Positions 29,614 to 47,905 of a stretch of DNA of 51,992 nt are shown here, piece after piece. How positions within the stretch are numbered: position 1 is the first letter of the stretch; every line of letters begins with the position of its first letter. The position numbers were made by a program, and so were the translations under genes. The notes under the pieces were generated by a model. The model did not search any database and was not told the origin of the DNA. It was given only the letters and a program-made list of their open reading frames with translations. This DNA is from Chloroflexota bacterium (GTDB taxonomy: Bacteria; Chloroflexota; UBA11872; VXOZ01): NCBI GenBank assembly GCA_028874195.1, contig JAPPLM010000034.1, positions 1 to 51,992 on the forward strand. Reading direction: 5' to 3'.

Positions 29614-30885
29614 TTGCTGAAGCAAACAACGAAGAAATCAAACCACCCTTCGCGAGCTTTGGCCGCTTTTCTGCGGATTCTCGGTATTTTGACGGCTGGC
29701 GTTCTGCTGGTCGTTATACATGTCGCCTGTGCCGGTGTGGTCGACGATGCCGCCAGAGAACAGCGTGTGCAAACACTGGAAGCTTCTATCCAGTCGCTCG
29801 CGGACGAGAACAGCGCACTGAGGGGCGAACTGGCAACCCTCCGCGACGAGAATGCAACCCTGCGCGAGCGCCTAGACGATCAGGACGCGCGGCTCCAAGA
29901 AATTGAAGAGGTCACCGCAAGTATGGAGATTTTCCTTCCTCTCTTGGAGCAGTGGACCAAGGGCAAGGATGACAAAGAGGGCAAGGAGCCGCAGCCGGAG
30001 GGCACCGTGCTGGAGCGGACGGTAGGGCTGGCGGAGGAAGCCGGCGGTGAGGTTTACCGCCTGGAACACCCCACGCGCAAAGACCCGGCGGTTTTGGTGT
30101 TACCGCTGGAGCACATCGACGGCACCACCCCGCTTATCGTGTCACTGCACGGCTTCGGCGGTAATGCCGCCGATCACAGCCGGTACTTCCCTCTGCACGA
30201 GCGCGTGAACTCCCACGGGTTCGCGCTGTTGCTGCCCAATGGAATCCCCAACAATGAAGGCAGCCGATTTTGGAATCCCACGGACGAGTGCTGCGACGGC
30301 GGCAAGTCCGGCGAGGATGATGTCGCCTATCTCACTGAGTTGGTGGCACGAGCAAGGGAAATCAAAGAATTCGGTCCGGTCTATGTCTTCGGTTACTCCA
30401 ACGGCGGGTTCATGGCCCACCATCTGGGGTGCAAGGGTCTGCCCGGCCTGCGCGCGGTGGCGAGCCTGGCAGGCACGAGCTACGTCGCGGACTCAAGCTG
30501 TGCGGGCGCGCCACCCGTGTCGGCGTTGCACATCCATGGCACAGCGGACAGCGTGATCCTATATGCGGGTGACGCAAGTGAGGCGGAAGGGAACGGCAAA
30601 GGGGCGTTTTACCTCGGGGCGCAGGACATTGTGGCGCGCTACAGTCGGATCGCGGACTGCCCGTGGCCCACTGACCCCCAGCCCTACGCCACCCTGGATT
30701 TTGACCGGTCCGTGCCCGGGGCCGAGACACAGGCCTTCCGCCTACAGGAGGGCTGCGCTGAGGGCATCACTATAGAGCTATGGAGCGGCGAAGGCAGCGG
30801 CCACGCTCCCGCTTATGGCGACGACCCCGCCAACGGCGACGCTTTCGTGGACGCCCTGCTCGCCTGGCTGCTGGCGCAGGAGTGA
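29614..30885 (+). CDS. PHB-depolymerase-like alpha/beta hydrolase with coiled-coil N-terminus
   Basis: This 423-residue enzyme of the LpqC/polyhydroxybutyrate depolymerase family has a putative signal/anchor (FLRILGILTAGVLLVVIHVACAG, about 18-40), a short coiled coil (LEASIQSLADENSALRGELA to LQEIEEV, about 50-108), and then a hydrolase domain. The domain has HGFGGNAADHSRYF, the nucleophile motif GYSNGGFMAHH, Asp in HIHGTADSVILY, and His in SGEGSGHAPAYG. So Ser, Asp and His are all present. The family hydrolyses short-chain polyesters and feruloyl/acetyl esters. The start is the TTG 29614. A 3' copy remains at 37166-37324. Confidence 0.85.
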   Translation: MLKQTTKKSNHPSRALAAFLRILGILTAGVLLVVIHVACAGVVDDAAREQRVQTLEASIQSLADENSALRGELATLRDENATLRERLDDQDARLQEIEEVTASMEIFLPLLEQWTKGKDDKEGKEPQPEGTVLERTVGLAEEAGGEVYRLEHPTRKDPAVLVLPLEHIDGTTPLIVSLHGFGGNAADHSRYFPLHERVNSHGFALLLPNGIPNNEGSRFWNPTDECCDGGKSGEDDVAYLTELVARAREIKEFGPVYVFGYSNGGFMAHHLGCKGLPGLRAVASLAGTSYVADSSCAGAPPVSALHIHGTADSVILYAGDASEAEGNGKGAFYLGAQDIVARYSRIADCPWPTDPQPYATLDFDRSVPGAETQAFRLQEGCAEGITIELWSGEGSGHAPAYGDDPANGDAFVDALLAWLLAQE

Positions 30886-37071: not shown

Positions 37072-37165
37072 ACAGGGCTAGGACCTGCCGACAAGAAGCT
37101 GACACTCAGGGACGGAGTTCGGTAGCACCTACCGTAGTGCACTATGCCATGGGAAGGTCATGTAA

Positions 37166-37324
37166 GGGGCCGATGGTGAGGAAACCCAAGCCTTCATCCT
37201 ACAAGCAGGCTGCGTCGAGGGAGTCACAATCGAAATGTGGGTGGGCGTAGGCAGCAGTTTTGTCCCTAACGAAGGTGACGCCTTCGTGAATACCCTGTTC
37301 GCCTGGCTGCTGTCACAAGATTGA
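37166..37324 (+). pseudogene. 3' remnant of a PHB-depolymerase-like esterase
   Basis: The frame reading EETQAFILQAGCVEGVTIEM, then GDAFVNTLFAWLLSQD and stop matches the C-terminus of the esterase at 29614 (ETQAFRLQEGCAEGITIELW, then GDAFVDALLAWLLAQE). The catalytic His segment (SGHAP in the intact protein) has decayed to SSFVP. Upstream is a stop codon at 37163. It is the left neighbour of the five-gene island. Confidence 0.85.
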
Positions 37325-37451
37325 CATGTCCTGGCAACGTGGATTCTCTTGCAGGATGTAGACTGTCCCAGACCTCCAAAGTAGAATACAGTGTGGGTCT
37401 AGAGTAGCAGATTCATCACTTGACACCCTTTCGAAATGGGACAGGAGACTT

Positions 37452-39623
37452 GTGGCAGGCACTCAAGTAAAGTCGCAGTTCCACTCTCAGGCGACCCGGG
37501 AGATGACGGTTGCCTCAGTTACATGGAAAGGCCACATAAAGAGGGTCCGACTTAAACCAGGAACGAGTTGGCTAGATGTGCCTAGATCAGCTTGCCTCAC
37601 TACCGGAGACCGAGTGCTGCAAGTGGACAACAAGGCTTGGGTGCCTTGCGACAATGGGATGTGCCAGGTGTTCCCAAGCTTTGCTTCCCCAGTTAGCCTT
37701 ACTTTAGGTGGGTTGCGGCTGGATGTTCTCATTAAGGAGATCACGGACCCAGACGAGCACTCCGCCTATGAGCATTTGGCTGATCTCCACTATAGGGGCA
37801 AAGCAGTTCACGGGCGCACTGCTAGACTGATTGCCCGGACTCTTGACCCCGCTTACCCGATGGTGATCGGCTTTATCGAACTGGCGACACCATTCTTCAT
37901 GAACAAGCCAAGAGCCAGAATACTTGATGCACCTTTTGAACTGGATAGGGTTAGCTGGAATACTTGGGACATCCATACACTCAGAGAGAACATCCATAGG
38001 TTGGTCAGAATTTCCAGAACTGTTGTCGCCTCCGAATTCAGAGGATTCGGCATTGGCAAACTCTTAGTGGAGCAAGCTGCCGTCTTTGCACGTCACCGAT
38101 GGCAAGTGGCGGGTAAGATGCCGTACTTTCTCGAAATCTCGGCCGATATGTTGAAGTTTGTACCATTCGTACGAAAAGCAGGCATGCGATATGTGGGAGA
38201 AACAGATGGAAACCTGAGCCGTGTCGCAAGGGACATGCGCTACCTCATTCAGCGCTTTGGAGACGGAGAAGAGGACACAACTCAATTTGAGGAGACTTCG
38301 GGCATTCTAGACCAGCAAGTAGCTCGGATGAGAAAATCCTTGATCTTGATGCAGGAACAAAGCATCAAGGCAAGTGAACTTACTGACAGACTTAATCGTC
38401 TGTCAGTTCAATCCGTCCTTAAGGACTTCGACCTCTTTCGCGGAATCGTCTCGCTGCCAAAACCTACTTACATGATGGGCTTGAATGCCTACTCAAAACG
38501 GTTCCTGGAGAGGCGCCTAGCAACTCTGGCACCAGAAGAACCAGTCTACGCTCCAGAGACTCAGGCCACATCCATTGAGGGCCCCATACACATATCGGGA
38601 CTTAGCATTACTTACCTGAGCCGTGTCCGGAGGACTGTGGCTACCCATGCTATACAGCAAGCATTCGACATTTCGCCCAGTGACATTCGCACCACTGCCT
38701 TGCAAGACTTGAATTGCGACATTCCCCCAGGTGAGGTGGTCTTGGTTGAAGGGCCATCGGGCTCTGGCAAGACGACATTGCTAGAATCCTTGGTGGGACA
38801 GGTGGACTCCGCCAAGGCTTTGGTCGACGGTCGTATAGTCTTTCCGGGCAAATTTCGACCATCCACCTTTAAGCCAATACGATCCCGAAAGTCACTTATA
38901 GAGCTGTTTGCCGCTAATGGAGTTCGAGAGGGACTACACTTTCTCGGTCTCGCCGGCCTTTCAGAGCCATTCCTCTACCTAAAGAGGTTTGAGGAACTAA
39001 GTAAGGGTCAACAGTACAGGGTACTGCTTGCACAAATGTTGGCATCGGGAAGCAATGTCTGGATTGTTGACGAGTTTTGTTCCAACCTGGACGAGATAAC
39101 TGCCAACCTTGTCGCCTACAATATCCAGCGCATGGCCAGAAAGTACGGACTCACGGTTGTCGCAGCCGCCTCTAATCCCCGACCATTCATACACTCCCTA
39201 CGGCCCGACTTGGTTATTAGGCTAAGCAGTTCATCACATAATTCAGTATTGACAGGAGCTGAGTACACTTGTCGATTGGGAGTTCCGAACCGTCGAGCGT
39301 CCAGATTGCAAGCCTCAGGTAGCTCTCTGCTTTCCACCCACGATGGCGCAAGACATACCGCGATATTCAAAGGTCGAAAGCGATTCAAGCAGGGCCTGAT
39401 GCTCCTTTCAAACGGGGATGACCCAGAACTCGTACGAGTTACCCGAATTACCCAGAAGTATCTTCGCAACGTAAATGGCTGTGATGCAGTGCTAGACGGC
39501 TTCTCGGACGTAATTGATCTAAGAACGTACTTGAAGAGGACTGACCCTACTCTAAAGGATGACAGTTACGTTACCGTTGTTGACTTCGTGCGCCTTGATG
39601 GAGAATTAGCTAATGACATCTAG
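37452..39623 (+). CDS. Acetyltransferase-ABC ATPase fusion (COG2401-like)
   Basis: This 723-residue protein has three parts. There is an N-terminal beta-rich domain (about 20-90). A GNAT-type acetyltransferase domain (about 95-265) has the acyl-CoA loop VASEFRGFGIGKLLVEQA and a PYFLEISADMLKFVPFVRK core. A C-terminal ABC ATPase domain (about 410-600) carries Walker A GPSGSGKTTLL (about 433-443), signature ELSKGQQYRVLLAQ (about 513-526) and Walker B VWIVDEFCSNLD (about 536-547). The H-loop position reads AAASNPRP, so the switch His is missing. It is like COG2401, an ABC ATPase fused to an acetyltransferase. The GTG at 37452 follows AGGAG. It overlaps the next gene by 11 bp, starting the island operon. 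Its G+C is lower than its neighbours. Confidence 0.85.
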   Translation: MAGTQVKSQFHSQATREMTVASVTWKGHIKRVRLKPGTSWLDVPRSACLTTGDRVLQVDNKAWVPCDNGMCQVFPSFASPVSLTLGGLRLDVLIKEITDPDEHSAYEHLADLHYRGKAVHGRTARLIARTLDPAYPMVIGFIELATPFFMNKPRARILDAPFELDRVSWNTWDIHTLRENIHRLVRISRTVVASEFRGFGIGKLLVEQAAVFARHRWQVAGKMPYFLEISADMLKFVPFVRKAGMRYVGETDGNLSRVARDMRYLIQRFGDGEEDTTQFEETSGILDQQVARMRKSLILMQEQSIKASELTDRLNRLSVQSVLKDFDLFRGIVSLPKPTYMMGLNAYSKRFLERRLATLAPEEPVYAPETQATSIEGPIHISGLSITYLSRVRRTVATHAIQQAFDISPSDIRTTALQDLNCDIPPGEVVLVEGPSGSGKTTLLESLVGQVDSAKALVDGRIVFPGKFRPSTFKPIRSRKSLIELFAANGVREGLHFLGLAGLSEPFLYLKRFEELSKGQQYRVLLAQMLASGSNVWIVDEFCSNLDEITANLVAYNIQRMARKYGLTVVAAASNPRPFIHSLRPDLVIRLSSSSHNSVLTGAEYTCRLGVPNRRASRLQASGSSLLSTHDGARHTAIFKGRKRFKQGLMLLSNGDDPELVRVTRITQKYLRNVNGCDAVLDGFSDVIDLRTYLKRTDPTLKDDSYVTVVDFVRLDGELANDI

Positions 39624-41073
39624 CCTGCCATCTCTCGGACACATAGCAAACGTCCGTAAGGTCGAAGTGTCTGAGCCTATCGAACGAGCAGCATTCGTCT
39701 CTAGCGGGCGACACCTTCTTATGGGCCAACGGCGTAATCGTGGTGATACTAGCGCCCTGATATTACTTGGAAAATGTATTGAGCAAGCCCGAGTCTCGAA
39801 TAAATTTGATTCCAACGTCTGGCTGGATATCCATACGCCACACGTTGTCTTTGTGTGCGGCCGTCGCGGTACTGGTAAGAGTTACGATCTCGGTATTTTG
39901 GCAGAGGGCTTAACTCTGGGACATGACTCGAACATTGCTACCAAGGACACAGCAATAACGACGGTGTTCTTCGATACGCAAAACCAGTTTTGGGCACTCT
40001 TGAACGCCCCGGATGAAAGGCTTGAGGAAGATAGGGAACAGCTTAACCAGCTTGAGAAGTGGGGCATACCTGCCAACCAGATACCATCCGCAAAGCTGTT
40101 TGCTCCCAGCGGTGATCCTTCAATTCATCCCAATGTCGTCGAGTTTGCTATTGACCCCACGGAACTGGAACTTGAGGATTGGTGTGGCCTTTTCGGTTTA
40201 GAGGTCTATTCTCCGCAAGGTCAACTCATTAGGAATCTCTTGAACAAGGTCGCCAGAGATGGCTATAGCGTGTCAGAGGGAGTTGGCAGGCAGGGACATC
40301 GCATAGTCGCTGCCCAAGCCTTATATGATTTTCCCGATCTGATTGCATGTTTGAAACAAGACATAGAGCTTAGCGAACAGTCTCAAAGGCAAACGCGTGA
40401 CGCCATACTTTGGAAACTCGAAGCGCTACGTGACAGCAAGGTATTCCAGAAGCGTGGGTGGGATGTCCTTGAGGTGCTCAAACCAGGCCAATTGAGTATT
40501 TTTCTCCTTCGCAATTTAGACGATTCTACTAAGTCATTGGTCGTAAGCATCATTGCCAAGAAGATCTTTCGCATAATGGGAAAGTACCACACTGAACGGA
40601 AGGTCGCTGAACGCGCAGGAAAACCGCTACCACAGGATTACGCTTCGTTGCCTCGTGGTGTATGGACGCTTATTGATGAAGCACACATTATCTGTCCATC
40701 CGATAGCCACACGGCAGCAAAGCCCATTTTGATAGAGTACGTCAAGCGTGGGCGTGACGCTGGGCTTTCGCTAGTCCTTGCTACACAGCAACCTTCGGCC
40801 GTAGACTCGCGCGTTGTTAGCCAAGTCGACCTGCTGATTGCTCATCGTTTGGTGGTAGATGCGGATATTTCGGCTGCCCTTGCACGAGTGCCTGCGGATT
40901 TCCCGAATGACGTCTCCTTTGGCGCAACGAGGATTTCTGATAGATTTGCGCTCGTCAGAGCGTTAGAAACTGGAGAAGCGTGGGTCGCTGATGCTGAGAC
41001 GAATCGAGCCATTTTGTTGGTGATGAGACCGAGGGTTTCGGCTCATGGCGGCGATGAGCCAAAGGTAGTATAG
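39613..41073 (+). CDS. HerA-like DUF87 ATPase
   Basis: This 486-residue protein looks like the HerA/FtsK superfamily. Walker A is VFVCGRRGTGKSYDL (Lys89), Walker B is GVWTLIDEAHIIC (about 345-357), and sensor I is LVLATQQPSAVDSRVV. The N-terminal strand-rich part (LGHIANVRKVEV) resembles the HAS-barrel of HerA. HerA hexamers pump DNA and pair with nucleases. It is the second gene of the island; 11-bp overlap upstream and 3 bp before the next gene. The C-terminal ALVRALETGEAWV segment fits HerA. Confidence 0.88.
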   Translation: MTSSLPSLGHIANVRKVEVSEPIERAAFVSSGRHLLMGQRRNRGDTSALILLGKCIEQARVSNKFDSNVWLDIHTPHVVFVCGRRGTGKSYDLGILAEGLTLGHDSNIATKDTAITTVFFDTQNQFWALLNAPDERLEEDREQLNQLEKWGIPANQIPSAKLFAPSGDPSIHPNVVEFAIDPTELELEDWCGLFGLEVYSPQGQLIRNLLNKVARDGYSVSEGVGRQGHRIVAAQALYDFPDLIACLKQDIELSEQSQRQTRDAILWKLEALRDSKVFQKRGWDVLEVLKPGQLSIFLLRNLDDSTKSLVVSIIAKKIFRIMGKYHTERKVAERAGKPLPQDYASLPRGVWTLIDEAHIICPSDSHTAAKPILIEYVKRGRDAGLSLVLATQQPSAVDSRVVSQVDLLIAHRLVVDADISAALARVPADFPNDVSFGATRISDRFALVRALETGEAWVADAETNRAILLVMRPRVSAHGGDEPKVV

Positions 41074-41076
41074 GCC

Positions 41077-42258
41077 ATGTCTATGCTTGGCTTGATTCGG
41101 CAACGTGCTCGAATAAGGGGTGAGCTTTCCCGCAGGATTGGATACACCAACGGCTTGCACGACATTTTTCGCTTCGCCAGGGTGGTGACCTACCTTCATG
41201 ATATTGGACCTGCGTCCGTTACGATTCTTCGCTCTGCAATACTTGAGCAAGAAGAAGCCGTTCGAGGAACAAGATATGCCGACGGAGTCATTGATGTCGG
41301 TAGAGCTCTTGGCTTGCTTGACAAGGCAGGAACCAAGCTCACCCTATCGGACAAAGGGTACGCACTCCACGCCGTTCAGCAGATGAACGGCCCGAATGAA
41401 TCTGTATCGGCAATGTTGTTACATTCGGTGCTCGAGTCGGATAGCGATGCAACCCTCAACCTCCTTGACATTCTTTCCACCGATACCAGTACCTCGACTG
41501 CACTCGGGCAACTGCTAGTAGACCGTTTGCTCCATGTTCTTAGGCTCCGTGAAACTTGGGCAGATCAGCATATTAAGTCAAAATTCGTTAGGGACATGGT
41601 CTTCCAGGAACTGACTGATTCGAAGCGCCGACTGGCCACCGCTGTGGACTTGGATCATAAGGAAGCCCAATCCTGGTCAACCTACAGAGAGGAACAAGGC
41701 CTTTCCCCAAAGAAGAAGGTAGAAAGATTCTACGCGCATACAGTAAATCCTCGGAGAGGCTGGCTCAAAGATCTGGGCTTCATCCAGCAGCAGGATCGGG
41801 AACAGTACTGCATTACGGAGAAAGGGTACCGTCTACTGTCCTTCCTTAAGCAGGCCCCTTGCTACTCGGAATCTGTTTTTGTCATGCCCTTTTCAGTTGA
41901 AGTGACCCAGCTACTTGGACTTCCCGCTTCGTCCAACTCAAGGGATTTATTCTGGCGGGCAACCGCTTCCTGTTCTGCGAATCCACCATCGCCAGCGCAT
42001 GTATCGCCTGACGAGCATCTTCAATTCATCAAGGGCATTTATCCTCATGTGAAGTTCCATATCTTCAATGAAGCCGCCATCGAAGCCATTTATAATGCAA
42101 TGGCCGCCCAACTGGCGATTGGTGGTGAATATATCGAGCGGGACTCATATGACGCTCTCCTAGAGTCCACATTCGTGGCGTTTCCCGATAAGATATACCA
42201 GTTGCGTCAACGACACGGAGGCAGCGGCTATATTTCAATGAGACGCAATGCCAATTAG
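41077..42258 (+). CDS. Winged-helix protein of unknown function in the island
   Basis: I do not recognise this 393-residue protein. Two winged-helix-like units are visible: one near 35-100 (VGRALGLLDKAGTKLTLSDKGYAL) and one near 220-255 (LKDLGFIQQQDREQYCITEKGYRLL). These imply DNA binding or a scaffold. The centre is helical and charged (MVFQELTDSKRRLATAVDLD), and the C-terminus is alpha/beta. There is no P-loop and no clear nuclease motif. It is 3 bp after the HerA gene and 8 bp before the PLD gene, so they are one operon. Confidence 0.7.
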   Translation: MSMLGLIRQRARIRGELSRRIGYTNGLHDIFRFARVVTYLHDIGPASVTILRSAILEQEEAVRGTRYADGVIDVGRALGLLDKAGTKLTLSDKGYALHAVQQMNGPNESVSAMLLHSVLESDSDATLNLLDILSTDTSTSTALGQLLVDRLLHVLRLRETWADQHIKSKFVRDMVFQELTDSKRRLATAVDLDHKEAQSWSTYREEQGLSPKKKVERFYAHTVNPRRGWLKDLGFIQQQDREQYCITEKGYRLLSFLKQAPCYSESVFVMPFSVEVTQLLGLPASSNSRDLFWRATASCSANPPSPAHVSPDEHLQFIKGIYPHVKFHIFNEAAIEAIYNAMAAQLAIGGEYIERDSYDALLESTFVAFPDKIYQLRQRHGGSGYISMRRNAN

Positions 42259-42266
42259 GGAACACC

Positions 42267-42857
42267 ATGCAGACCAACGACGACTCTCCAGCCGTCACTC
42301 CGGCCCTAGGAGACGACGTAGCCAAAGAGGTTCTTCAGTGGATTGGGGCGTTTAGACTCTTGAGCAAGGCCACTATCATCTCCTTCAACATGCAAGACTA
42401 CGATTTCTGGGGACAAGGACGATTGTCTCATTTGCTTCTGAGACAAATCGCCTACGGGGCACAGATAACTGTCATGACAACACCTCCTCCAGGTAACGAT
42501 GGGAAGAAGCAGGCCTTTAGAGATAAACTGCAATTGCTGGAGGTCTTGGTTGCGAAGGGAGCCGAAGTCTACCTCAATCCTGATCTTCATGCCAAAGCCT
42601 ATTTGTTCCAAGATAGCCAGAAGTCTGAGATGGTGATCGTCGGATCGCCTAATCTCACTAGCAGAGGTTTTGGTACCAAAGGATCGACCACACCGGACCT
42701 TATTGAGTTGGCTCTGTTGACAGGGGATGAACTCGTGTACTCGTCTACAGCAAAACTCATAGAGACTGGCTTAATCGCCAACCCCCGGACCTTGACCTTT
42801 GCCAAATGGGCTTCAAACAATCGACCCACGATCGCGGCTGCGAGAGGAGCACCATAG
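42267..42857 (+). CDS. PLD-superfamily nuclease-like protein
   Basis: This 196-residue protein has one PLD catalytic motif, LHAKAYLF with His108 and Lys110, followed by IVGSPNLTSRGF (Gly-Ser-x-Asn around residues 126-129). The pattern HxK...GSxN fits PLD nucleases (Nuc, BfiI and DISARM DrmC-like), which need a dimer to make the two-motif site. The Asp of HxKxxxxD is shifted: Gln115-Asp116. Nothing else in the protein resembles a phospholipase. It is the likely effector nuclease of the island. The stop is directly followed by the start of the AAA+ gene. Confidence 0.82.
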   Translation: MQTNDDSPAVTPALGDDVAKEVLQWIGAFRLLSKATIISFNMQDYDFWGQGRLSHLLLRQIAYGAQITVMTTPPPGNDGKKQAFRDKLQLLEVLVAKGAEVYLNPDLHAKAYLFQDSQKSEMVIVGSPNLTSRGFGTKGSTTPDLIELALLTGDELVYSSTAKLIETGLIANPRTLTFAKWASNNRPTIAAARGAP

Positions 42858-44033
42858 ATGAATGAGACGCTGGAAATAGCGAGGTTGAGGCGCAACCCGT
42901 TCACTCTGGTTCCTGGTGAAAGAGTCACCATTTGGGCAGGGTACAGCCAACTCAGATCGGAACTCATGGAAGTGGTGCAATCCTGTAGATCAGACCAAGT
43001 AGGTCTGTCGGAATTCGCGATACTGCACGGTGAATTGGGAACCGGCAAGTCCCATGCGCTCAGGTATCTAAGGCACATAATCACATCTGAGAACAAGGAT
43101 GAGTTTGATTCCCCGTGTGTCTACCTAGAGACCCTAAAAGTTGCTGCGAGCATGAACTTTGTCGCGCTATACAGTAAGGTCATGGATTTGCTGGTGCCAC
43201 ACATAAAGGAAACCGCTGAGTGGCTACATCTTGAGGTTGAAGACACTGCTAAGCGAAAGAATCCGGACGGTAGTCTGAGCGAGCAAAGAGAGTCGATTGA
43301 CGCCATTTACAGTGATCCTCGACTGACCCCAGGTTATCCTCCACTTGGCCACCTTCTTAGAGGTCTAAATGACAACTCTAGCGAAGCACTAACGCTCTTG
43401 CTAGGAGAAAAACTCTCCGGGGCGGGCGCAACGAGCAAGTACGCCAAGTACAATATGACGAGCGCAATAGACTCAGAGTACGATGCAACCAGATGTCTAG
43501 GCGCATACGTCAATTTATGTACAAGGGGTTCAGACGTACTTAGTGAAGGAGACGTTGTCGGACGCAACAAGGCATTCTACTTCTTCTTTGATGAGCTCGA
43601 GATTGCAACTGACTTTAGGCCGCAGGAAGTTCTGAGCTTGAACCAAGGCATCCGTGATCTCATCAATGCCTGCCCAGAGAATTGTTGTTTCCTATTTGGA
43701 ATGACCGGAGACGTAAGGAGCATCTATGGTCTTCTAACCCAAGCCGTCATTAGGCGGATGTCTCGCGAACCAATGGAGATCGAACCTCTGACCTCCGAAG
43801 AGGCAGTGGACTTTTTAAAGCAGGTGCTAAAGGGTCACCGTTCCGATCCGAGTGACCCAGACGAGTATCCGTTTGAAGAGAATGCCTTGCTTGCCATCGC
43901 AGAGGCCACTCAGATCAAGACCTCATCAGACTTGTTTAGAGGATGCCGGCGTGTCCTGGAAAAGTCGGTGCTTTCGGGCGCGCTACAACCAGGCGGGACT
44001 ATTGATGTCAACATGGTCCAAATGGCGATGTAG
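42858..44033 (+). CDS. AAA+ (ORC/Cdc6-like) ATPase
   Basis: This 391-residue ATPase has the N-terminal RRNPFTLVPGERVTIWAGY, Walker A ILHGELGTGKSHALRYL (Lys64), Walker B AFYFFFDELEIATDF (about 237-251), sensor FLFGMTGDVRS and an Arg-rich stretch RRMSREPMEI. This order recalls the ORC/Cdc6-like AAA+ ATPases and BREX BrxC-type proteins in broad outline. It is the last gene in the island and its ATG abuts the previous stop. It is only 28 bp from the LamG remnant. Confidence 0.82.
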   Translation: MNETLEIARLRRNPFTLVPGERVTIWAGYSQLRSELMEVVQSCRSDQVGLSEFAILHGELGTGKSHALRYLRHIITSENKDEFDSPCVYLETLKVAASMNFVALYSKVMDLLVPHIKETAEWLHLEVEDTAKRKNPDGSLSEQRESIDAIYSDPRLTPGYPPLGHLLRGLNDNSSEALTLLLGEKLSGAGATSKYAKYNMTSAIDSEYDATRCLGAYVNLCTRGSDVLSEGDVVGRNKAFYFFFDELEIATDFRPQEVLSLNQGIRDLINACPENCCFLFGMTGDVRSIYGLLTQAVIRRMSREPMEIEPLTSEEAVDFLKQVLKGHRSDPSDPDEYPFEENALLAIAEATQIKTSSDLFRGCRRVLEKSVLSGALQPGGTIDVNMVQMAM

Positions 44034-44061
44034 GTTGTGCTGCGAAGATGCGAACGTTCAC

Positions 44062-44208
44062 TTACAGACGCTGTCTTTCGAAGATTTCTGCTACTTGCGT
44101 ATCGCTCAACCCCCGGTTGTAGAGGCGCACTTCGGGCAGGCTGCCGCTGAAGGGGCCGGTTTGACCGTTGCCGATCTGTAGCGGTTCTTCCAGTTCCACC
44201 CTCAACTG
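44062..44208 (-). pseudogene. 3' remnant of a LamG-domain gene
   Basis: On the minus strand this reads ELEEPLQIGNGQTGPFSGSL, then VRLYNRGLSDTQVAEIFERQ and a stop, matching the C-terminus of the intact gene at 46289 (IDEPIQIGNGQIGPFSGSLS, VRLYNRALSDTHVAAIFEKQ). No N-terminal counterpart exists nearby. It is the right-hand neighbour of the five-gene island. Confidence 0.85.
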
Positions 44209-44305
44209 ATTCGAAGTCTTCACCCAATCCTGCAAATCCATTGGGATGTGATTCCCCCCCACAATGTCTGGGAATGTGGTCCCTGCCAGCCTGGAGAATC
44301 TTCCC

Positions 44306-46288: not shown

Positions 46289-47905
46289 TTACATGCGCTG
46301 TTTTTCAAAGATAGCTGCGACGTGCGTGTCGCTCAACGCCCGGTTGTAGAGCCGCACGTCGGACAGGCTGCCGCTGAAGGGGCCGATTTGGCCGTTGCCA
46401 ATCTGGATTGGTTCATCTATCGAGAGGTCGTAGTCGGCGGCGTTGAATGGCGCGGACTCACCCACAATTGCGCCGTCCACATAGAGGCGCAGTGTACCGC
46501 CAGCGCGGACTGCGGCGACGTGGCGCCAGCCGCCGGGCAGCGCGTGGTCGTGGGTCACGTTCCTGCCGGCCTCCAGCGAGAGCACGTTCCCCGACGGCAG
46601 CGTGCCGCAGAAGAGACGGCCCTGGTAAACCGCCATCGTCCACGCGCGGCGGTAGCGCACGTCCGGCGTGGTATCGAGTTGCCCCGTATGCGCCCACTCG
46701 CCCTCATCGTCGTAGCGGTAGACGGAACCCGCGGGTAGGGTGCCGGCATAAAGCTTGCCGTTGTAGACCATCATGCCCATGACTTCCAGTTCTTCGCCCA
46801 GGCGTCCGCAATCAAGCCACGGCAGGCCGTCATCCTGGCGGTAGACGGAGCCGCTGGGCCACACGCCGGTATGCAGCCGGCCCTGGTACGACGTAAACGA
46901 ATAGAGTTGCGTGGAATCCGCCGCATTCCCGCAGAAGGACCAACGCCGCTCGCCCTCGTAGCGAAAGACGCCGCCCATGTCGTAGCCGGTGGCATAGAGA
47001 CCGCCTTGGAAGACGCCCAAAACCGCAACGCGCGTGCCGGGATCGCCGCACGGCAGCCAGGTCTTGCCGCCCGCGTACCGGAACATCCCCCGGGAGTACA
47101 TGGCCGAGCCGTAGAGTTCGCCGTTGTAGACCGCCAGGCCGAACACATCCTCGGCGTCACCAAGCTGGCCGCAGTCCACCCATTCCGTGCCGCCGGCGTA
47201 GCGGTAGACGTTGCCGCCCGGCACGCGGTTCGGCGAATTCGGCAGACTGGAACCCTGTGCGCGATAGCAACTCACCGCCGCGTAGAGATCGCCACTGTAT
47301 TCGGCCAGCGCGCTCACGGCGTTGCAACCGGCAGGCGCGCCGCAGTCTTCCCACGCCGTGCCGCCGGCATAGCGGTAGACGTGCCCGGTCTCGCCTGACT
47401 CACCCTCATACGTGCCGGCGTAGAGCGCGCTGTCGTGCACCGCCAGGGCCATAATGTGCTGCGCGTTGCCGGGCCGGCCGTGGTTGGTCCACTCCGCTTC
47501 CAGCTTGCCGTCGTCGATGCCGAAGAAGACGTTGCGCCAGTTGCTCTGGCACGAGCCCACGCCCGGAGCCGACTGGATACCGAAATTGAACCCGCGCCGC
47601 GTAGCGGGGCAGTACCGGCTCAGGATGTCACCGGGGACGTCTTTGGTTATGCGGTTGGCATTCACCCACGCCGCCAGAGAGAAATCCCCGGTGCCAAGCG
47701 ACAGGGAATCGTCATGCGGAATCGTGATACGCGCACCGCGGCCGTCAAACAACGCGGCCCCGGGCCCGCCGCCCATACGCAGCGGCGCAGAAAACTCGAG
47801 TGCCCCCTGAACCCTGCCGTGATTGCCGTTGCCGGAGTGATCGTCGCAATCCCCGTCTAACGGCCAGTGTCCTCGTAAGCCGGCATCGACATTCACGTTC
47901 TGCAA
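46289..47905 (-). CDS. LamG-fold protein with an internal beta-propeller
   Basis: This 538-residue protein begins with the first half of a LamG/concanavalin-like domain (GHWPLDGDCDDHSGNGNHG, FDGRGARITIPHDDSLSLG; residues 10-140). It then contains about six to seven repeats of 40-50 residues with a Y-x-G-x-LYAG and VYRYAGGTxWxDCG core (150-450), then the second half of LamG (GGWRHVAAVRAGGTLRLYVDG to VRLYNRALSD; 460-538). So a propeller is inserted inside a LamG fold. No signal peptide is visible. Binding to sugars or proteins is likely. A 3' remnant of a relative lies at 44062-44208. Confidence 0.83.
   Translation of the reverse strand: MQNVNVDAGLRGHWPLDGDCDDHSGNGNHGRVQGALEFSAPLRMGGGPGAALFDGRGARITIPHDDSLSLGTGDFSLAAWVNANRITKDVPGDILSRYCPATRRGFNFGIQSAPGVGSCQSNWRNVFFGIDDGKLEAEWTNHGRPGNAQHIMALAVHDSALYAGTYEGESGETGHVYRYAGGTAWEDCGAPAGCNAVSALAEYSGDLYAAVSCYRAQGSSLPNSPNRVPGGNVYRYAGGTEWVDCGQLGDAEDVFGLAVYNGELYGSAMYSRGMFRYAGGKTWLPCGDPGTRVAVLGVFQGGLYATGYDMGGVFRYEGERRWSFCGNAADSTQLYSFTSYQGRLHTGVWPSGSVYRQDDGLPWLDCGRLGEELEVMGMMVYNGKLYAGTLPAGSVYRYDDEGEWAHTGQLDTTPDVRYRRAWTMAVYQGRLFCGTLPSGNVLSLEAGRNVTHDHALPGGWRHVAAVRAGGTLRLYVDGAIVGESAPFNAADYDLSIDEPIQIGNGQIGPFSGSLSDVRLYNRALSDTHVAAIFEKQRM

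Follow-up and report, generated by a model that had tools for sequence, protein, structure and literature searches.

A GNAT-ABC ATPase fusion protein as a candidate enzyme for DNA self-marking in a HerA-type defence cassette

The question raised by this locus is what an acetyltransferase (GNAT) domain does when it is joined to an ABC ATPase that has lost the histidine of its H-loop. The gene lies in a stretch of 51,992 nucleotides from a Chloroflexota bacterium (contig JAPPLM010000034.1 of assembly GCA_028874195.1), referred to here as the window. A first-pass annotation had taken the product for a soluble, SMC/Rad50-like or MutS-like switching ATPase that controls the transfer of an acyl or other group. 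Our answer is that the GNAT-ABC protein is probably an acyl-CoA-dependent DNA self-marking enzyme, which would serve a five-gene, restriction-like defence cassette of the HerA type.

The GNAT-ABC protein and its family

The gene, domains and motifs of the GNAT-ABC protein are as follows.

37452..39623, + strand: GNAT-ABC gene, 723 aa, GTG start shortly 3' of AGGAGA
about aa 16-85: N-terminal beta-rich domain
about aa 88-270: GNAT domain
38040..38057, + strand: GNAT motif A, RGFGIG (R197-G202), the acyl-CoA pyrophosphate loop, by motif reading; R197 and G200 do not vary among 24 GNATs of the family
aa 277-330: helical linker
about aa 380-600: ABC ATPase domain
38751..38774, + strand: Walker A, GPSGSGKT (aa 434-441); Lys in 97/98 family members
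38997..39011, + strand: ABC signature, LSKGQ (aa 516-520); S, G and Q each in 97/97 family members
39057..39092, + strand: Walker B, VWIVDE (aa 536-541), and D-loop, SNLD (aa 544-547); D and E in 98/98 family members
39174..39176, + strand: codon of Asn575 at the H-loop (switch) position, AAASN575PRPF, by motif reading and family alignment
about aa 634-714 (window 39351-39593): C-terminal alpha+beta domain

Every motif that had been claimed for the protein, namely a GNAT-like domain and a complete P-loop, signature and Walker B, is present. The ABC domain was identified by Pfam ABC_tran (E 2.3e-14, 54.6 bits against a cut-off of 25). The GNAT domain alone scored below the Acetyltransf_1 cut-off (18.5 vs 20.7). 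It was assigned as a GNAT because the T. roseum homolog passes the Pfam cut-off and the predicted structure matches GNATs. An AlphaFold2 model of the whole protein had a mean pLDDT of 75.9, and its GNAT part matched solved GNATs with a best Foldseek E of 8e-6. Twelve GNAT positions (H113, Y114, G140, R154, R189, R197, G200, E228, M233, F239, A243 and G244) are invariant over 24 divergent members. A missing active site would have spoken against the first-pass annotation; motif A is intact and the model agrees with solved GNATs. A canonical Q-loop Gln was not recognisable by eye between Walker A and the signature. The C-terminal alpha+beta domain is common to the window protein and its homologs in L006, L014 and L016 and is missing from T. 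roseum.

The protein has no membrane segment (maximum 19-residue hydropathy 1.21), in keeping with the earlier description of a soluble, non-transporter ABC ATPase joined to a GNAT. An ABC transporter was rejected for the cassette as a whole, as no hydrophobic segment was found in any of its five proteins (maximum KD19 1.39).

The missing histidine, read earlier as SNPRP, is real: the switch position in AAASNPRPF is occupied by Asn575. Its significance was examined in an alignment of 98 different family ABC domains with a letter at this position, which takes in the window protein, L006, the G076 protein described below, the T. roseum type, SSU5-like phages and IMG/VR viruses. Histidine is found in 94/98 domains, 86 in the column itself and 8 one residue earlier ('THRPE', T. 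roseum type). The four exceptions are the window protein (N), L006 (N), the virus L123 (N) and L016 (D). The Walker A Lys, the signature, the Walker B Asp/Glu and the D-loop Asp are near-invariant across the same 98 domains. The L006 protein, which is syntenic with the window protein, has Asn at the same position (SNPQPF), and the two form one clade (98/93) in an ABC tree whose rows do not include the G076 protein. A conserved histidine elsewhere might have served as the H-loop. H581, six residues past Asn575, is present in L006; L014 and L016 do not have it, so H581 is an unlikely substitute. As judged from the alignment, Asn575 is a derived change that the two HerA-linked proteins share with few other members, and is not diagnostic of a class.

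The proposed SMC/Rad50-like or MutS-like class did not hold up. Sequence searches and fold searches against the PDB returned the nucleotide-binding domains (NBDs) of transporters and ABC-F proteins. The Pfam SMC_N match is weak (17.0 bits vs a cut-off of 40), and a long coiled coil is not present in the AlphaFold2 model. Placement with SMC/Rad50/RecF or MutS was therefore rejected. Asn575 is no mark of an SMC/MutS-like class either, since most family members retain the histidine.

The protein belongs to a known family of the COG2401 type, in which a GNAT and an ABC ATPase are paired. Membership of the ABC subfamily, which is characterised by a DEF Walker B and a compact helical subdomain, was indicated by matches to phrog_293 (E 3.5e-28) and phrog_11143 (E 2e-23), with which a family HMM and the tree agree. 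A matching phage protein carries the annotation 'MK0520 protein, ABC-type ATPase fused to a predicted ...'. Through this record the comparison with COG2401 suggested in the first-pass annotation proved apt, MK0520 being the COG2401 prototype.

Three arrangements of the two domains were found. In the window, L006, L014 and L016, and also in the T. roseum type, the fusion has the order GNAT-ABC. The reverse, ABC-GNAT, was found in viruses: a query with the GNAT domain only identified 79 further IMG/VR loci, and an ABC ATPase is present in 78/79 of them, nearly always in one ORF. These viral fusions (L054-L132) form a large set of about 470-570 aa. Finally, the domains are encoded by separate close genes in nine SSU5-like loci (L011, L012 and L017-L023), with the GNAT gene after the ABC gene; the seven loci L017-L023 are not independent, having been found with a search pattern that was partly derived from the GNAT. 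In the phage loci L017 and L018 a thioredoxin-like gene lies between the two. Fusion in both orders together with neighbourhood is strong evidence that GNAT and ABC work together.

The pair is present in hundreds of phage and phage-plasmid records. In phages as unrelated as Pasteurella Pmp13 and Gordonia/Rhodococcus Jace it sits between ParB-like genes and the terminase. T. roseum-type homologs (L010, L035-L040) occur in several Chloroflexota as stand-alone genes without defence or restriction-modification (RM) neighbours. An ASCH-like gene lies beside the gene in T. roseum and in one other. In the ABC tree, which does not include the G076 protein, the defence- and phage-linked members branch apart from the T. 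roseum type.

The cassette, its insertion site and a DISARM-linked relative

The GNAT-ABC gene leads a cassette of five genes, whose spacing ranges from an 11-bp overlap, between the first gene and herA, to 8-bp gaps. The island and the four partner genes are listed below.

37094..44262: island that holds the defence cassette, with conserved flanks, bounded where homology to G004 and G003 breaks
39613..41073, + strand: HerA/FtsK-type DNA translocase, 486 aa (Pfam DUF87, E 3.9e-11)
41077..42258, + strand: 393-aa protein with a winged-helix-like segment at aa 230-258, a possible DNA reader (Pfam HTH_45, E 2.6e-4, below cut-off)
42267..42857, + strand: PLD/HKD nuclease, 196 aa, with HAKAYLFQD and GSPN, DpdK/NgoFVII-like (Pfam PLDc_2, 28.0 bits, cut-off 27)
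42858..44033, + strand: ORC/Cdc6-like AAA+ ATPase, 391 aa, with Walker A GELGTGKS and Walker B YFFFDE (Pfam ORC-CDC6-like, E 5.8e-4, below cut-off)

The nuclease matched DpdK in PADLOC with an E of 7.1e-6.

Homology to the sister species G004 and G003 is lost from about 37090-37093 and returns at 44263-44265. The GC content of the island is 50.9%, and that of the remainder of the window 59.5%. In G004 (L149) the same flanks enclose about 9.7 kb encoding a DrmMII-like cytosine methyltransferase, a nicking-endonuclease-like gene and a SNF2-type helicase, and in G003 (L150) about 4.8 kb encoding a type IIG enzyme. Three species of one genus thus carry three different restriction/defence cassettes at one and the same place between shared flanking genes, and the site is a defence hotspot. 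The GNAT-ABC gene is absent from the five other genomes of the genus. Gene remnants lie at both ends of the island. The left one (37180-37325) resembles the C-terminus of an esterase-like gene ending at 30885, both by eye and in a homology search; the right one (44062-44200) resembles, by eye, the C-terminus of a LamG-like gene at 46289-47905. Judged by the hotspot and the gene content, the cassette has the hallmarks of a virus-defence system, and within it the GNAT-ABC protein is the only plausible candidate modifier.

The same five genes were found in the same order in a Rhodobacter MAG (L006), with identities of 62, 74, 52, 66 and 71% in gene order. This copy adjoins a SIR2-like gene, an LmuB-like gene and an integrase. 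The SIR2-like and LmuB-like (SMC/Rad50-type) genes form a trio with a gene for a 193-aa protein beside the HerA cassette (L006 1470-6222). Further copies were sought widely. Scanning IMG/VR with alignments of the ORC, 393-aa and HerA proteins gave none, and neither did the ORC alignment among 251 genomes of the same phylum or the HerA alignment among 200 genomes of the Rhodobacter phylum. GNAT-ABC searches of 398 and 249 genomes from two other phyla returned known copies only. The cassette is rare, since these genome and IMG/VR searches gave no further copies.

A GNAT-ABC homolog with 46% identity was found in another member of the phylum, G076, where it opens an operon of GNAT-ABC, DrmE, DrmA, DrmB and DrmC (L014/L015, C1 about 594.8-605.5 kb). 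DrmE matches above the cut-off were obtained in 5/251 genomes of the phylum. In G094 a DrmMII cytosine methylase (E 8e-124) lies upstream of DrmE-DrmA-DrmB genes of the same PADLOC subfamilies as in G076. G030 has a DrmMII-like methylase in its DISARM locus, G071 a cytosine-methylase-like frame (by eye), and none was recognised in G180. Because G094 has DrmMII upstream of the same-subfamily Drm genes, the G076 GNAT-ABC gene takes the place of the methylase. In a Clostridia contig the succession GNAT-ABC, DrmE, DrmA survives in the form of remnants. Just downstream of the G076 operon, on the other strand and convergent with its 3' end, is a complete type IIG RM enzyme.

A proposed self-marking mechanism and its alternatives

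The proposal starts from the domains with their intact motifs, the conserved operon, the hotspot, the linkage of GNAT to ABC and the DISARM position. From these we infer that DNA is the substrate, that an acyl group is transferred, that the mark labels the cell's own DNA, and what each of the four partners does. The GNAT domain would move an acyl group from acyl-CoA onto a base of host DNA. The ABC domain, with ATP as a timer or clamp, would couple DNA binding or base flipping to the transfer, and gating could occur through ATP-dependent dimerisation on DNA. Loss of the H-loop histidine slows hydrolysis in ABC ATPases, and Asn575 suggests a member that would bind ATP, dimerise and hydrolyse slowly; slow hydrolysis would make ATP more a switch than a fuel. 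DNA lacking the mark would be loaded by the ORC/Cdc6-like ATPase, pumped by HerA, read by the 393-aa winged-helix-like protein and cut by the HKD nuclease, and marked host DNA would be spared. A role in group transfer, as first suggested, is likely, with DNA as the probable recipient on the evidence of gene neighbourhoods.

Some observations sit less easily with DNA self-marking. T. roseum-type homologs lie outside defence operons, as might be expected if the substrate were RNA, a protein or a metabolite. Among the domains assigned to the GNAT-ABC protein, none is an established DNA-binding element. The type IIG enzyme beside the G076 operon could supply the mark that its DISARM reads. The sample is also small: two full copies of the HerA-type cassette were found, and one intact and one degraded copy of the DISARM type.

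Several other explanations were weighed. The GNAT might be an effector or toxin that acetylates a host target, such as an aminoacyl-tRNA or a protein, once the ABC sensor or HerA/ORC detect invading DNA, leading to abortive infection. The GNAT toxins AtaT and KacT were among the GNAT fold matches, and pairs of ABC sensor and effector, e.g. OLD-TOPRIM, are common in defence (PMC12839542). We nevertheless consider this unlikely: the cassette already has a nuclease, the DISARM homolog occupies a methylase position, and a host toxin would account less well than a DNA-protecting enzyme for the hundreds of phage and phage-plasmid records with the pair. Slightly less likely still is a family of RNA, protein or metabolite acyltransferases, recruited into defence to modify a cassette protein or a tRNA rather than DNA. 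The GNAT fold is generic, and the stand-alone T. roseum-type homologs, one beside an ASCH-domain gene, have no RM neighbours. However, the defence- and phage-linked members are another branch of the ABC tree and sit with ParB-like, terminase, DrmA and HerA genes.

The two remaining explanations turn on Asn575. Slow hydrolysis, which the Asn suggests, would also suit a protein that acts only as an SMC/MutS-like switch for DNA scanning or assembly and whose GNAT binds but does not catalyse. The twelve invariant GNAT positions are as expected of an active enzyme, though, and neither sequence nor fold searches gave any similarity to SMC, Rad50 or MutS, which makes a non-catalytic GNAT very unlikely. 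Decay is the most improbable reading. If loss of the His meant a copy that no longer functions, Asn575 and the rare, patchy distribution would be explained, but all five ORFs are intact, none of the remaining motifs is missing, and the L006 operon, from another phylum, has this Asn fixed as well.

Neither the GNAT+ABC family nor the prediction that it acylates DNA is new. A passage in a review of jumbo phages cites an earlier prediction, from a 2013 paper by Iyer and colleagues, that the pair acylates DNA bases (PMC7824862). Neither the five-gene HerA cassette nor a GNAT-ABC gene at the DISARM methylase position was found described in the open-licence literature, and a literature search for COG2401 found no paper. 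A 2026 review gives the modifications used in prokaryotic defence as methylation, phosphorothioation and 7-deazaguanine derivatives (PMC12904381). A GNAT-ABC takes the methylase position in DISARM and is the only plausible modifier of the HerA cassette; both observations point to acylation of DNA as an additional self-mark. The general form of this idea is more tentative, and we rate it as somewhat short of probable: that cellular restriction systems, HerA-type and DISARM-type, mark their own DNA with an acyl group through an ATP-gated GNAT-ABC that is borrowed from or shared with phages. If true, hosts would have a way of marking their DNA in addition to methylation, phosphorothioation and 7-deazaguanine. 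The phage prediction also becomes directly testable, since the pair is common in SSU5-like phage-plasmids, which are tractable and occur in E. coli and Klebsiella.

Comparison with known systems

A Mom-like DNA modification was one role first considered. Mom of phage Mu is a GNAT-fold DNA-modifying enzyme, a function that is known for Mom and predicted here, but it has no ABC partner. Homology was rejected: the alignment of Mu Mom with the GNAT gave an hhalign probability of 0.5% (E 0.11), and the solved Mom structure 8bv8 did not appear in the top 50 fold matches to the GNAT model. What survives is the analogy of a GNAT that modifies DNA, our best functional guess, which comes from gene neighbourhoods rather than kinship to Mom.

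MADS, an eight-gene system (mad1-mad8), shares with the cassette an ABC part resembling mad3 and a HerA resembling mad8, both at the domain level. Membership was rejected on these two matches and the lack of the MADS methylase, kinase and specificity genes.

HerA/FtsK capture systems, including BREX-Related Capture (BRC), have been described (PMC10853773, PMC12839542). The window cassette may share with them the combination of HerA, an ORC/Cdc6-like ATPase, a winged-helix-like protein, a nuclease and a GNAT; its HerA match is firm, and those to ORC/Cdc6 and the winged helix are below the Pfam cut-offs. The described nuclease is an REase, whereas here it is of the HKD type, and here an ABC ATPase forms one protein with the GNAT. 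The HerA of the cassette is homologous (hhalign E 6e-40) to that of a system on a Haloplanus plasmid, which includes BrxC-like, TGT and GNAT genes and is close in gene content to BRC and the HerA/FtsK capture systems. No relation could be detected between the 393-aa protein and the 380-aa protein of the Haloplanus system, so a BRC link through it was set aside. Membership of BRC was also rejected, as the five proteins gave no Pfam match to PglZ, DUF6079 (BrxC-like), STAND NTPase or DUF4007 and there is no TGT gene.

DISARM class 2 (DrmMII, DrmE, DrmA, DrmB, DrmC) likewise has an HKD nuclease, and the nearest defence-linked relative of the GNAT-ABC protein in the phylum (46%) leads the DrmE-DrmA-DrmB-DrmC operon of G076. 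The window cassette differs in having HerA and an ORC-like ATPase instead of DrmA, DrmB, DrmE and the methylase. It was not classed as DISARM: the only PADLOC Drm match was a weak one of the HKD nuclease to DrmC (E 0.025).

The GNAT+ABC pairs of phages and archaea are likewise close. They share with the window protein the two domains, the ABC subfamily, linkage by fusion or neighbourhood and the GNAT signatures H-Y, R-x-x-G and E...M...PF..AG. Those pairs are mostly viral and lie near ParB-like and terminase genes, whereas the window protein has the GNAT-ABC order, extra N- and C-terminal domains, an H-loop Asn and a place in a five-gene cassette.
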